Under the pieces are notes generated by a model. The model saw only the letters and a list, made by a program, of their open reading frames with translations, searched no databases and was not told the origin of the DNA. DNA of 64,000 nt from Saccharopolyspora endophytica (lineage in GTDB: Bacteria; Actinomycetota; Actinomycetes; Mycobacteriales; Pseudonocardiaceae): NCBI RefSeq assembly GCF_018070075.1, contig NZ_JAGPXE010000010.1, forward strand, positions 186,001 through 250,000, read 5' to 3'. Both the position numbers and the translations under genes were made by a program. This document shows positions 10,740 through 61,908 of the stretch, piece by piece. Within the stretch, counting starts at the first letter, position 1, and the number at the start of each line of letters is the position of its first letter.

Positions 10740-10858
10740 CCCACGCTAACCCGCACCCGGACCCGAAGCCGGATTTCCGCAGCGAGTCAACATCCTTCGA
10801 CCAAGCCGACCCCCAGAGCGATCCCGAACACCCGGACCTCCCGGTCACCACCAACCCG

Positions 10859-10898
10859 GATTACGGCCGTATTCGGGTACCGGATTACCGGCGTAATC
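10859..10898. repeat. Family B repeat: two 16-bp palindromes with 24-bp period
   Basis: GATTACGGCCGTATTC (10859-10874) and GATTACCGGCGTAATC (10883-10898) are separated by 8 bases, so they start exactly 24 bases apart. The same 16-mer type and the same period recur five times at 45725-45836. The array lies in the 261-base space between the DUF72 start and the 3' end of the hydroxylase operon, about 120 bases upstream of the DUF72 start. Confidence 0.85.
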
Positions 10899-10954
10899 CG
10901 GTCATCCGTGGGCGAGGTGAGGCGGTGTGGGCGCACATGTTGTGCGCAGACGCC

Positions 10955-17199: not shown

Positions 17200-18000
17200 A
17201 TGTCCGCACTCGCTAGCTCCACAGGCCGGGCCCGCATCTCCGCGCGCACGCTGCGCACGGACCGCTGGTGGCTCCCACCGCTGATGACCTTCCTCGGCCT
17301 GATGGCCTTCGTGGTCTACGGCCTGGTCCGCACGTTCATGAACCAGTGGTACTGGGTACCGGAGCACAACTACCTGGCGCCGTTCTTCTCGCCGTGCCTG
17401 TCCGCGGCGTGCGTGCCGGGGTCGAGCCACTTCGGCCAACCGTTCCCGGACCTGGGATGGCTGATTCCGCCGCCGATCTTCGTGCTGCCGTTCGTGCTCG
17501 GGTTCCGGCTGACCTGCTACTACTACCGCAAGGCGTACTACCGGGCGTTCTGGGCGTCGCCGCCGGCCTGCGCGGTCGGCGAGCCGCACGGCCGCTACAC
17601 CGGCGAGACCCGGTTCCCGCTGATCATGCAGAACGTGCACCGGTACTTCTTCTACGCGGCGATGCTGGTCGCGGCGGTGCTCACCTACGACACCGTGATC
17701 GCCTTCAAGGGCACCGACGGCGGTGTCGGGGTCGGGCTGGGCACGCTGCTGATGGTGGTCAACGTGGTGCTGCTGTGGTCCTACACGTTGTCCTGCCACT
17801 CCTGCCGCCACCTCATCGGCGGACGCCTCAACCACTTCTCCAAGCACCCGGTGCGCTACTGGCTCTGGACCAAGATCACCTGGCTCAACGGCAAGCACAT
17901 GCTGCTGGCCTGGTGCTCGCTGGCCTCGGTCGCCCTGGTCGACCTGTACGTGATGCTGGTGGCGGCCGGAACCATCACTGATCCGAGACTGTTCAACTGA
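17200..18000 (+). CDS. Succinate dehydrogenase (Sdh1 type) membrane anchor subunit
   Basis: A 266-residue membrane protein with five to six hydrophobic segments. His residues that could bind heme or quinone lie in SHFGQPFPDL, IMQNVHRYFFYA, SCHSCRHLIGG and LNGKHMLLAW, with conserved Cys in SPCLSAAC. Together with the next two genes it forms a three-gene complex like Rv0249c-Rv0247c, where one large anchor replaces separate SdhC and SdhD. It would deliver electrons from succinate to menaquinone in the cell membrane. Starts at ATG 17200 after a 140-base gap; followed by a family A repeat and then sdhA. Confidence 0.85.
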   Translation: MSALASSTGRARISARTLRTDRWWLPPLMTFLGLMAFVVYGLVRTFMNQWYWVPEHNYLAPFFSPCLSAACVPGSSHFGQPFPDLGWLIPPPIFVLPFVLGFRLTCYYYRKAYYRAFWASPPACAVGEPHGRYTGETRFPLIMQNVHRYFFYAAMLVAAVLTYDTVIAFKGTDGGVGVGLGTLLMVVNVVLLWSYTLSCHSCRHLIGGRLNHFSKHPVRYWLWTKITWLNGKHMLLAWCSLASVALVDLYVMLVAAGTITDPRLFN

Positions 18001-18022
18001 GGTTGTCGGGGTGATCTGCGTT

Positions 18023-18186
18023 GCGGTGCAGGTGGGGGAACCTGAGCGCGTCCCTGGCTGCGGGATCTCCTCCTCATGAATGCCGATTCACAGCGTCGGA
18101 GCCGTCCTCGCCAGGAACGCGCTCAGAACCCCCGGCGGTGCGGGTGGCGAGGGTGGTCGGCGAAAGAGAGAGCGGCTCCGCCGCTT
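18023..18186 (+). repeat. Family A structured repeat, copy 1 (between sdh anchor and sdhA)
   Basis: Direct repeats GCGGTGCAGGTGGGG (18023) and GCGGTGCGGGTGGCG (18135) enclose a hairpin. Its outer stem is CTGAGCGCGTCCCTGGC (18042-18058) with GCCAGGAACGCGCTCAG (18110-18126): 16 of 17 positions pair, with one C.A mispair. The apical hairpin is TGAAT/ATTCA at 18077-18090. A 6-bp GC hairpin follows at 18171-18185. This copy is the most diverged in its loop. It starts 22 bases after a stop codon and ends about 12 bases before the sdhA ribosome site, inside the operon. Confidence 0.85.
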
Positions 18187-22417: not shown

Positions 22418-22458
22418 CCGGTGGTCGGGACTTCTCCCGTCGCACTCCCGACCACCGG
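22418..22458 (+). terminator. Hairpin directly after the VanZ-like gene
   Basis: A perfect 13-bp stem, CCGGTGGTCGGGA (22418-22430) with TCCCGACCACCGG (22446-22458), starts two bases after the stop codon. No T-run follows until the family A repeat. Confidence 0.65.
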
Positions 22459-22479
22459 CCCAGCGGTCGCGCGGGCAGT

Positions 22480-22660
22480 GGTCGTTTTGCTCAGCGGTGC
22501 GGGTAGCGGAACCTGACACGCCTTCTGGACTCCGTGCGCCACTCCTGATGTATGTCCAATACACGGCGTCGCGGCGTACTCGCCAGAAGACGTGTCAGAA
22601 CCCGCGGCGGTGCAGGTTGCGAGGGTGGTTCCCACGCCTCGCGGCTGCGCCGCTTGCGCA
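22480..22660 (+). repeat. Family A structured repeat, copy 2 (after VanZ-like gene)
   Basis: The clearest copy. Direct repeats GCGGTGCGGGTAGCG (22494-22508) and GCGGTGCAGGTTGCG (22607-22621). Outer stem CTGACACGCCTTCTGG (22513-22528) with CCAGAAGACGTGTCAG (22583-22598): 15 of 16 pair, with a C.A mispair. Second stem GTGCGCC (22534) with GGCGTAC (22573). Apical hairpin TGTAT-GTCCA-ATACA (22549-22563). Trailing hairpin GCGGC-TGC-GCCGC (22641-22653). The bases before it (GTCGTTTTGCTCA) are also shared with other copies. Confidence 0.9.
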
Positions 22661-22680
22661 CGATCACTCCACGCAAACCA

Positions 22681-23553
22681 CTAGGCGTTGAGCTTCTGGT
22701 TCCGCTCGCTCATGTAGCGGCCGAGGTCTCGGACTTCCTGCTCCAGCTGGGGGATCAGCTTGATCAGCTGGCGTCGCATGAAGAGCTCCACCAGCGCCGA
22801 GCCGGGCAGGTTGCGCAGCCAGTGCATGAGCATGACGCCGCGCGGGACGTAGACGCGGCGCTTGCGGCGCTCGACGGCGTTGGCGAAGGCTCGCGCGCAC
22901 GCGTCCGGGGTGGTGATCGCGCGCATCGGCCACGGCAGGCGCTTGCGCATCTCGGTGAAGGTCTTGAGGTCACCGGCGACCTCGCGCACCAGGTCGGTGT
23001 CGATCCACGACGGGTGCGCCGAGCCCACCGACACGCCCAGGTGCAGCACCTCCATGCGCAGCGCCGACGCGAACGCCTCGGACGCGGCCTTGCTCGCGGT
23101 GTAGGCGGTCATGCCGCCGATCGGGGCGAACGCCGACAGGGAGGACACCACCAGCAGGTAGCCCTTGCTCGCGGCCAGCTCCGGCATCACCGCGCGGGCG
23201 GTGTGGAACACGCCGTTGACGTTGACGTCCATGGTCTTGAGGAAGCCGCGCGGGTCGCTCTCCCGGATGCTGCCCAGCGGCGCGATGCCCGCGTTGGCGA
23301 TGGCGGCGTCGATGCGGCCGAACTTCGCGGTGGCGGCGTCGACGGCGGCCTGCAGCGCGTCGGGGTCGGTGACGTCCGCCTCGGCCCAGAAGTGGCCTTC
23401 GCCGAGCTCGGTGGTGACCTCGGCCAGTTCTTCGGGCTCCAGGCCGACCAGGGCGAGCTTGGCGCCGCGCTTGGCGAGCTCGCGCGCGGTCTCGGCGCCG
23501 ATACCCCTGGCGCCTCCCGTGATCAGGACGACCTTGCCGGACACGTTCGGCAT
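22681..23553 (-). CDS. Short-chain dehydrogenase/reductase with a C-terminal extension
   Basis: A 290-residue SDR with intact motifs: LITGGARGIGAETA, IANAGIAPLG, the serine in VVSSLSAFAPIGG and YTASK. The last 60 residues (RRKRRVYVPRGVMLMHWLRN followed by LPGSALVELFMRRQL) are hydrophobic and basic, as in mycobacterial lipid-linked SDRs that associate with the membrane. Substrate unknown; fatty or steroid-like alcohols are plausible by family. The upstream region has three repeated sites (23582-23624), suggesting repression by a TetR-type protein not encoded here. Converges on the VanZ/family A element. Confidence 0.88.
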   Translation of the reverse strand: MPNVSGKVVLITGGARGIGAETARELAKRGAKLALVGLEPEELAEVTTELGEGHFWAEADVTDPDALQAAVDAATAKFGRIDAAIANAGIAPLGSIRESDPRGFLKTMDVNVNGVFHTARAVMPELAASKGYLLVVSSLSAFAPIGGMTAYTASKAASEAFASALRMEVLHLGVSVGSAHPSWIDTDLVREVAGDLKTFTEMRKRLPWPMRAITTPDACARAFANAVERRKRRVYVPRGVMLMHWLRNLPGSALVELFMRRQLIKLIPQLEQEVRDLGRYMSERNQKLNA

Positions 23554-26510: not shown

Positions 26511-26673
26511 TTGCTTGGCGGTGCGGGTAGCGGAACCTCAGACGTCCTCCGGGTCCGGGCGCCACTCCTGATGTATGCCAATACACGGCGTCGCGGCGTC
26601 CTCCCCGGAGAACGTCTGAGAACCCGCGGCGGTGCGGGCTGAGTCCCACACCTGAAGCAGCGGCCGACGCCGC
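26511..26673 (+). repeat. Family A structured repeat, copy 3 (between ctaD and serB)
   Basis: Direct repeats GCGGTGCGGGTAGCG (26518) and GCGGTGCGGGCTGAG (26629), 111 bases apart. Outer stem CTCAGACGTCCTCCGGG (26537-26553) with CCCGGAGAACGTCTGAG (26604-26620): 16 of 17 pair, with the same C.A mispair. Second stem GGGCGCC with GGCGTCC. Trailing hairpin GCGGC-CGAC-GCCGC (26660-26673). Stem sequence differs almost entirely from copy 2 while the loop core is nearly identical. Confidence 0.88.
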
Positions 26674-28777: not shown

Positions 28778-28893
28778 CCGGGTGCAGCCCCTGTCGAACT
28801 TCCTCCTGGTCAGCGGAGCATCGATCTCCTCGGTCGACAAGACCGCTTCTGAGCGGATCACGCTCGCGAGGTAAACCCGTTCGGGTGAGGGAT

Positions 28894-28953
28894 TCGAATT
28901 TCGCGCGAAATTCGAGCGGCGAAGTTCGGGCTCGAATTTCGCGCGAAATTCGA
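28894..28953. repeat. Family C repeat: two identical 22-bp palindromes, 38 bp apart
   Basis: A perfect 22-base palindrome with half-site TCGAATTTCGC occurs at 28894-28915 and again, identical, at 28932-28953. The 16 bases between are GCGGCGAAGTTCGGGC. It lies between the convergent 3' ends of the Pth2-type gene and ecfT and could terminate both. The same arrangement is found at 49138-49197. Confidence 0.88.
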
Positions 28954-28979
28954 ATCCCGGCTCGGGGCGGGAGGGGCGG

Positions 28980-45689: not shown

Positions 45690-45724
45690 CGCTGTTCAGG
45701 CCCGGGTGCGCACCGCTCGACCCG

Positions 45725-45836
45725 GAATACCGCAGTAATCAGAACCCGGATTACCGCCGTAATCGGGGACCTGAATACGGCCGTAATCCGGACCCTGAAT
45801 ACCGCCGTAATCGGGCACCTGATTACTGCCGTATTC
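45725..45836. repeat. Family B repeat: five 16-bp palindromes with exact 24-bp period
   Basis: Palindromic units start at 45725, 45749, 45773, 45797 and 45821, each 16 bases of the type GAWTACNGCNGTAWTC: GAATACCGCAGTAATC, GATTACCGCCGTAATC, GAATACGGCCGTAATC, GAATACCGCCGTAATC, GATTACTGCCGTATTC. The 8-base spacers are AGAACCCG, GGGGACCT, CGGACCCT and GGGCACCT. Lies between the cysM terminator and the 3' end of the SMP-30 gene. The same units with the same period occur at 10859-10898. Confidence 0.92.
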
Positions 45837-45844
45837 GCGTCACC

Positions 45845-49131: not shown

Positions 49132-49137
49132 GGGAAT

Positions 49138-49197
49138 TCGAATTTCGCGCGAAATTCGAGTCCGAACTTTCGCGCTCGAATTTCGCGCGAAATTCGA
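49138..49197. repeat. Family C repeat: second pair of 22-bp palindromes, 38 bp apart
   Basis: The same perfect 22-base palindrome as at 28.9 kb occurs at 49138-49159 and 49176-49197, again 38 bases apart. The 16-base spacer GTCCGAACTTTCGCGC resembles the reverse complement of the spacer at 28916-28931, so the two composite elements are probably inverted copies of one another. Begins 7 bases after the phosphodiesterase stop. Confidence 0.88.
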
Positions 49198-49277
49198 ATG
49201 GGGGCTCGGTCGCCGGGGTGGGCCGGTGCGACCGGGGCCTTCGTCGGCCGGTCGGGGCCTGGGCTTAGGGTTGAGCT

Positions 49278-51460: not shown

Positions 51461-51630
51461 CGGCGGCAGCCGCCGTTTCAAGTGCGGGACTCAACTCGCA
51501 CCGCCGCGGGTTCTCAGACGTCGTCTGGGGAGGACAGCCGAAGCGCCGTGTATTGGTCATACACAAGTCTCGGCTCCCGGAGCCAGACGGCGTCTGAGGT
51601 TCCGCTACCCGCACCGCTGAGCAAGGTGAT
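51461..51630 (-). repeat. Family A structured repeat, copy 4 (after bcp, minus strand)
   Basis: Read on the minus strand: direct repeats GCGGTGCGGGTAGCG (51617-51603) and GCGGTGCGAGTTGAG (51504-51490). Outer stem CTCAGACGCCGTCTGG (51598-51583) with CCAGACGACGTCTGAG (51528-51513), one C.A mispair. Here the second stem is AGCCGA with TCGGCT instead of GTGCGCC/GGCGYAC, so this stem also changed on both sides, while the apical hairpin GTGTAT/ATACAC is kept. Trailing 6-bp hairpin CGGCGG/CCGCCG at 51461-51475. Confidence 0.88.
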
Positions 51631-54242: not shown

Positions 54243-54436
54243 GGTCGTTGTGCTTGGCGGTGCGGGTGGCGGAACCTGAGACGCCGCCTGGACTCCGTGC
54301 GCCACTCCTGATGTATGTCCAATGCACGGCGTCGCGGCGTACTCGCCAGACGACGGCTCAGAAACCCCCGGCAGGGGACGGTACGGCGGTGCCGGTTGCG
54401 AGGGTTGCTTTCACGCCTCGCGGCTGCGCCGCTTGC
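54243..54436 (+). repeat. Family A structured repeat, copy 5 (after PoxB-like gene)
   Basis: Direct repeats GCGGTGCGGGTGGCG (54257) and GCGGTGCCGGTTGCG (54386); this copy has about 16 extra bases before the second repeat. Outer stem CTGAGACGCCGCCTGG (54276-54291) with CCAGACGACGGCTCAG (54346-54361): 13 of 16 pair. Loop core nearly identical to copies 2 and 6. Trailing hairpin GCGGC-TGC-GCCGC (54420-54432) is identical to copy 2. Confidence 0.86.
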
Positions 54437-61732: not shown

Positions 61733-61908
61733 GTCCTCTTGCTTCGCGGTGCGGGTGGCGGAACCTGAGCGGCTTCGTGGACTCCGTGCGCCGCTCCTGA
61801 TGTATGTCCAATGCACGGCGTCGCGGCGCACTCGCCACGAAGTCGCTGATGAACCCGCGGCGGTGCGAGTTGCTCAGGTGGGGTGAAGAGAAAGCACCTT
61901 CGGTGCTT
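61733..61908 (+). repeat. Family A structured repeat, copy 6
   Basis: Direct repeats GCGGTGCGGGTGGCG (61746) and GCGGTGCGAGTTGCT (61860). Outer stem CTGAGCGGCTTCGTGG (61765-61780) with CCACGAAGTCGCTGAT (61835-61850): 13 of 16 pair, with a G.T at the place where the other copies have C.A. Second stem GTGCGCC with GGCGCAC is perfect here. The trailing hairpin is AAGCACC-TTC-GGTGCTT (61892-61908), a different sequence from the GC hairpin of other copies but at the same place. Confidence 0.86.

Follow-up and report, generated by a model that had tools for sequence, protein, structure and literature searches.

On the plus strand of the window, by which we mean the whole 64,000-nucleotide stretch of Saccharopolyspora endophytica contig NZ_JAGPXE010000010.1 (positions 186,001 to 250,000) that was analysed, a noncoding repeat occupies positions 22478..22658, limits that mark its conserved part, from the left block to the end of a 3' hairpin, as set by the left conservation profile of 121 copies and a type-a right module. 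Conservation in the left block climbs from about 16 nt before GCGGTGC (121 copies), and the left 15-nt direct repeat, GCGGTGCGGGTAGCG, lies at 22494..22508 (1.0-1.9 bits per position over the same 121 copies). The 5' arm of the main stem, H1 (22514..22528), whose base overlaps a CT[GC]A[GC] box, forms 15 bp with the 3' arm (22583..22597) and encloses an inner stem and an apical hairpin TGTAT..ATACA (together 22529..22582; 74.8% and 96.4% of cells are paired in helices 2 and 3). To the right lie the other 15-nt direct repeat, GCGGTGCAGGTTGCG (22607..22621), and a 3' GC hairpin, H2 (22641..22653), all on the plus strand, as is the core match spanning 22490-22628. The direct repeats, the 15-bp stem, the near-constant loop and the 3' GC hairpin described by an earlier, sequence-only reading are thus each present in the copy at 22494, and the length of the element is about 180-230 bp.

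The same reading had placed six copies in the window, all of which were located there by core matches, and no genes were called inside any of the six cores. The copy at 18019..18156 (plus strand) has on one side a gene that ends at 18000 and on the other a succinate dehydrogenase/fumarate reductase-type flavoprotein gene; that at 26514..26644 (plus) separates a COX1-type oxidase gene from a SerB-like gene and lies directly past a terminator-like hairpin; that at 51489..51621 (minus) lies between convergent TauE-type and AhpC/TSA-type genes; and that at 61742..61881 (plus) occupies the gap after a response-regulator gene. The remaining copy (54253..54392, plus), which follows a TPP-enzyme gene, is a member of the family, as had been claimed for position 54257, but its right part holds additional bases, which corrects the earlier description. 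The window also contains a separate repeat family of the TTCGAATTTCGCGCGAAATTCGAA type, present as two long-palindrome stretches 84% alike (28889-28965 and 49133-49209, with arms of 29 and 31 nt that are 100% and 94% complementary), and ATTACGGCCGTAAT-like palindromes, in units at 24-nt spacing at 45719-45839 and once more at 10853-10901.

Twelve copies from this genome (G000) were used to build a covariance model, which, searched against the whole of it with 150 candidates scored, matched at least 147 places at E <= 0.01, and 122 of the genome's copies were analysed together with their flanks. Model matches were present in 21 of the 22 genomes searched in the genus, this one included, with counts (lower bounds in each genome) of 64 to at least 148 in most, 27 in G014 and 3-5 in G008, G012 and G021; one genome, G015, gave no model match. 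Across the Pseudonocardiaceae, matches at E <= 0.001 occurred in 78 of 297 genomes, covering 15 of 46 sampled genera, in a search that scored no more than 11 candidates per genome. The covariance-model search offered as a check on the sequence-only reading thus recovers a dispersed family both in its own genome and in other Pseudonocardiaceae. A motif scan had, among the matches listed, twelve Saccharopolyspora species, two Amycolatopsis, Actinopolyspora biskrensis and Halopolyspora algeriensis; when nine of its loci were put to the model, seven matched and two Actinopolyspora loci failed at E <= 0.001. Distant copies follow the same plan, and most rows have GCTSCGGGATC and GCTGTCCTCGC where the inner parts join. 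A search of plasmids and phages gave no match to the element, and a literature search, with most subscription journals outside its reach, found no description of the repeat family.

The arms of H1 could be placed (at least 9 of 15 matches) in 115 of the 122 copies, the other seven being left out of the arm statistics. Over these 115 copies the Watson-Crick fraction of the arms averaged 0.892, compared with 0.630 when partners were shuffled between copies (highest of 200 shuffles, 0.665), and the opposite arm does therefore change with its partner, as the sequence-only reading had held. That the stems vary between copies was likewise borne out, but they are not unique to each copy: with 57 distinct 5' arms among the 115, the commonest occurring 14 times, the variation consists mostly of subfamily differences. 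For the family as a whole we aligned 44 copies (19 rows from the genus and 25 from other genera), these rows, and the 47 used for folding energies, being chosen by hand from the genome's own copies and from 61 hits that the model gave at 60 loci. Changes on both sides were found in 25 of the 29 pairs of the three helices, and 88.3% of cells were paired, a value that dropped to 30-46% in slid structures; the covariation score was 0.478 against 0.131 in shuffled alignments, and double-changed cells numbered 256 against 79.5. None of five covariation measures was reached by any of 500 shuffles, with controls (shuffling and sliding) that ignore relatedness and a structure written from the alignment itself. 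The proposed selection on structure accordingly stands in that pairing is kept despite sequence change, family-wide and above both controls, although the free evolution of stems copy by copy that it implied was not seen. What is conserved in H1 is the fold, not the letters. The outer flanks were also considered as a general copy-specific stem and rejected, the mean longest complement being 6.40 against 6.34 after shuffling.

Departures from perfect pairing in H1 have a fixed direction. The C.A mispair seen in the window is a family trait, since 93 of the 115 copies hold at least one 5'-arm C facing a 3'-arm A; such cells make up 112 of the 186 non-Watson-Crick cells in the stems of this genome (25 others are plus-strand G.T), and 107 of the 112 fall at stem positions 8-11. 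The C:A cell is also kept in 16 of the 25 rows from other genera, and family-wide 40 non-Watson-Crick pairs of the main stem would be read as G.T if the minus strand folded, against four if the plus strand did. Over 47 copies, the consensus folding energy was -72.1 kcal/mol for the minus strand vs -56.1 kcal/mol for the plus strand; single-copy energies showed no preference for the minus strand, which was the lower in 23 of the 47. A mismatch of fixed polarity that is a wobble on one strand suggests that the fold forms in one single strand; the working form would probably be such a strand, with the minus strand the likelier of the two. The other reading of this polarity is a conserved plus-strand C.A mismatch.

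The outer limits of a complete element are visible in S. rosea, where tandem copies expose inverted ends. These ends, GCCTGTCTTYGAAC, occur exactly 190 times in S. rosea, compared with no occurrence of the reversed control, and usual full copies have 227-229 bp between them; nested copies of the element are present as well. Among 27 end pairs (same strand only, with three rows sharing an end with another), the 5-bp flanks were identical in 11, differed by one mismatch in eight and by two or more in eight, CTCAG and CTGAG being the commonest repeats. Shuffling gave a mean of 5.6 identical flanks and reached 11 in one of 500 trials; since the target is nearly invariant, this test of duplication has only moderate strength. 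Short forms with the same ends, no H1 and 115-158 bp between the ends were also seen in S. rosea (L413-L418). An apparent inverted repeat in the S. rosea flanks was discarded as an artefact of scanning both strands with near-complementary patterns.

S. rosea also holds a candidate partner. Between ends TGCCTGTCTTTGATCTTGGG, similar to the element ends, lies a stretch that encodes a 277-aa IS5-family transposase, which scores 199.5 bits with the NCBIfam IS5 model (cut-off 110) and, in the 223-aa part that was compared, matches Pfam DDE_Tnp_1. By eye, all nine full copies of this insertion sequence (IS) carry the same CTSAG on both sides, and in eight of the nine the insertion point is the CTSAG box at the foot of H1, next to an element's GGAACC block; across from the block, the usual H1 arm was recognisable by eye in five of the eight, and the interior was variant in three. 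A related IS in G014 has, again by eye, CTAAG or CTCAG on both sides in three of four copies. Close relatives of the S. rosea transposase (E <= 1e-30) are present in seven of the 22 genomes of the genus and, at that threshold, absent from the other 15, which include the genome studied here and many with more than 100 copies of the element. When 1.5 Mb of loci were scanned for unpartnered boxes (25 solo left, 18 solo right), no longer, gene-bearing version was apparent by eye; it was the end motif of S. rosea alone that led to the insertion sequence. The element is short, noncoding and present in many copies, and in S. rosea it shares terminal inverted repeats with an autonomous element and has a matching target duplication. 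The sequence-only reading had held the repeat to match neither attC sites nor REP/IS200-type hairpins; the repeat does fit a known kind, the MITE-like non-autonomous transposon.

In the S. endophytica genome these ends have largely faded. The CTNAG/CTAG repeat together with inverted ends at 7 or more of 12 matches was found in three of 122 copies (shuffled mean 0.2), and the same repeat with inverted ends at 9 or more in one; the stretch of about 12 nt before the left block, where the inverted repeat lies in S. rosea, has almost no sequence in common between copies. The insertions in this genome look old at their ends, with a core that is still well conserved. Identity between G000 and its close relative G002 was 81-84% at the sides of the core, 68% in the end zone, 69% in the far flank and 91% upstream, in 26 of 56 pairs that passed a filter for conserved arms, which favours conserved elements and admits the replaced-hairpin site c071. 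The slower change of the core relative to its flanks could be due either to selection acting on the core or to copies converting one another.

According to our own gene calling, a gene 3' end faces 119 of the 122 copies. Ninety-seven copies follow a same-strand gene and 25 have no such gene upstream, 62 have a convergent gene on their right, 40 have both and three neither; between co-directional genes both orientations occur (56 sense, 22 antisense). The distance between the stop codon and the start of the model has a median of 24 nt over the 97, being 8-34 nt for 79 of them and 71-548 nt for 17. The target forms CTAAG, CTGAG and CTAG contain stop codons, which accounts for insertions at such codons, and the prediction that follows was upheld: a YTRAG/YTAG stop context was found at the left end of 30 of 66 copies, compared with 91 of 484 other genes (p = 5e-6), and at the right end of 16 of 40 (p = 0.0034 against the same 91 of 484). 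The S. rosea box is separated from GCGG by 27 nt, a spacing that predicts 24 nt between the TGA in CTGAG and the model start, which equals the median observed over the 97 copies. A replication-strand bias was considered and set aside: 65 of 98 S. rosea copies run with a fork whose origin was assumed, a tendency that gene direction may explain.

Orthologous sites reveal that copies have been gained, lost and exchanged. The sdh site (the copy at 18019..18156) could be placed in 10 of 20 relatives; there G000, G002, G005 and G020 carry the element and G016 has it in altered form, whereas G010, G021, G014, G006 and G019 have 11-13 nt without it, and G003 has 106 nt from which the full element is missing. 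Between ctaD and serB, full copies with differing stems occur in G000, G002, G010 and G013, and forms without H1 in G003 and G007. Between G000 and G002, for which 56 of the 122 sites were located with G002 sampled mainly where the model matches, some sites, c003 among them, hold a different copy in each genome, at c071 the hairpin has been swapped with both sides retained, and c110 is missing in G002, the G000 copy lying between a stop codon and a separate terminator-like hairpin. Pairing of the H1 arms at orthologous sites (45 of 54 sites with arms) was 91% in G000 and 73% in G002, a comparison that favours G000, on which the arms were defined; many copies are decayed in G002. At three loci in relatives (L129 and L133 at the S2 site, L132 at the S4 site) the element is missing and another palindrome, of the AGTTTTCATGAAAACT type, is present, and in G006 the copies at L155 and L156 are broken by a further palindromic insert of the ATTTCCATTGAAATCGGACC..TTCGATTTCAATGGAA type.

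We consider it probable that the repeat represents a non-autonomous, MITE-like family of the Pseudonocardiaceae, mobilised by IS5-type elements and having an unusually conserved folded core. IS5-family DDE transposases would act in trans on the outer ends, movement being deduced from the ends, target and partner present in S. rosea, and insertion at CTNAG/CTAG would duplicate the target, by a mechanism presumed to be the same in S. endophytica. Insertions would tend toward stop codons and, through the duplication, could leave a stop behind; a target that holds a stop codon and is duplicated would explain why copies sit where genes end. Between the ends would lie the core, with its two direct repeats around the long hairpin H1 and the second hairpin H2, and the central pair of H1 would be G.T in the minus-strand fold, the presumed working form, and C.A in the plus-strand fold. 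In S. rosea the CTSAG box at the foot of H1 does itself receive the insertion sequence and additional copies, and orthologous sites show that a site can afterwards take in a different copy or hairpin, be left without H1 or decay. If so, a large actinomycete repeat family is now tied to a candidate mobilising enzyme family, a stop-containing, duplicated target offers a simple reason for harmless insertions at stop codons, and the element is an unusually clean example of a mobile element with an interior conserved for its fold; with more than 100 copies in many genomes, it could widely shape transcript ends. The role of the core would lie in an RNA function or in help to mobility. A bolder version, which we put forward tentatively and hold to be possible but not likely, is that the core is an RNA or single-stranded-DNA machine in its own right, formed by the minus strand, that has ridden the ends of several different IS5-type elements through at least 15 genera and was kept at the level of single copies in S. 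endophytica after those ends wore away, with H1 acting as a decoy landing pad or a regulatory RNA; as a decoy, H1 with its CTSAG base would pull further insertions away from genes.

Several features of the element have counterparts in known systems. The direct repeat of E. coli IS5 is 4 bp long and follows the consensus C(A/T)A(G/A) (PMC11677980); the S. rosea partner, likewise an IS5-family DDE transposase, has a CTSAG target that resembles this consensus, but the repeat there is 5 bp, the element itself lacks a transposase gene and its ends vary between species. Strongly folding bacterial MITEs include RUP, NEMIS, bcr1, ERIC, YPAL, Nezha and EFAR, which, according to PMC3733652, are likewise 70-300 bp long, without coding capacity and often beside coding sequences; bcr1 reaches 130 copies (PMC6542083). 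Relative to these families, the present element differs in having a core found in 15 of 46 genera while the ends seen differ, a polar mid-stem wobble and a target that overlaps stop codons. The bcr1-bcr18 repeats of Bacillus cereus are dispersed and intergenic, some families having a conserved secondary structure, and 40-51% of copies in two strains lie within an mRNA (PMC3446304 and PMC6542083); they are likened to our element by description and not by sequence, the motif there being TTTAT (PMC6542083) and here CTNAG.

Other explanations must be weighed against a mobile, IS5-dependent origin. Were the repeat a fixed structured RNA of the host (a 3' UTR or antisense RNA), immobile and descended from old duplications that were kept for regulating or stabilising the adjoining mRNA, the strong covariation, the proximity of copies to stop codons and the slower change of the core sides relative to the flanks (81-84% vs 68-69% in the 26 of 56 filtered G000/G002 pairs) would all be expected; however, empty sites in relatives, nested copies, end and target signatures with a partner IS, the occurrence of both orientations (56 sense, 22 antisense) and the frequent decay of orthologues in G002 (Watson-Crick 0.73 vs 0.91, 45 pairs) make this unlikely. 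Pairing could also persist with no selection on the fold if template switching during hairpin-templated repair copied one arm from the other. A stem between direct repeats is a setting that favours slippage, and the joint change of the arms and the forms that have lost H1 (in G003 and G007 at ctaD-serB, and in S. rosea) would suit such a process. Yet it should produce perfect palindromes, and instead 93 of 115 copies, and 16 of 25 rows from other genera, keep a C:A of one polarity; moreover, the inner and apical helices covary as well and many arms in G002 decay uncorrected, so that we regard templated repair as very doubtful. It is quite improbable, too, that the element is a bidirectional transcription terminator that spread by ending transcripts between convergent genes: against the convergent gene on the right in 62 of 122 copies, the gene ends on both sides in 40 and the GC hairpin H2 must be set the lack, by eye, of a U-tract after H2 in the right modules examined, the separate terminator-like hairpins before or after some copies (at about 22418-22459, at c110 and at ctaD-serB) and the CTNAG target, which itself accounts for the position.

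The sequence-only reading had noted a layout recalling attC or REP/IS200-type hairpins, with a size and conserved loop that matched neither. The attC sites of integrons combine a variable stem with a conserved structure and a strand-specific fold; they form cassette arrays, however, whereas copies of the present element lie scattered, one by one, among ordinary genes, most of them kilobases from the next, and by context it is no cassette-array site. No part of the 64-kb window reached the Rfam gathering score, and a lax Rfam search of 22440-22700 gave a best match of E 0.85, with 16.8 bits where 49.8 are needed. REP sequences of the REP/RAYT systems resemble the element in being palindromic, extragenic and of high copy number, but, according to PMC3733652, they are 20-40 bp long, with a GTAG end and a Y1 transposase, in contrast to an element of about 180-230 bp with no Y1 link. 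If the element were a hairpin of the REP/IS200 type and a Y1 tyrosine transposase moved it, both the polar mismatch pointing to a single-strand fold and the position at gene ends would be explained, but this is extremely improbable given the IS5-like ends and target in S. rosea and the failure of Y1 transposases to track the element: Y1_Tnp matches were found in nine of the 22 genomes of the genus and were lacking in several with more than 100 element matches (among them G001, G003, G007 and G010). G006 had the most Y1 transposase matches of the 22 genomes, 19, the next highest number being five.
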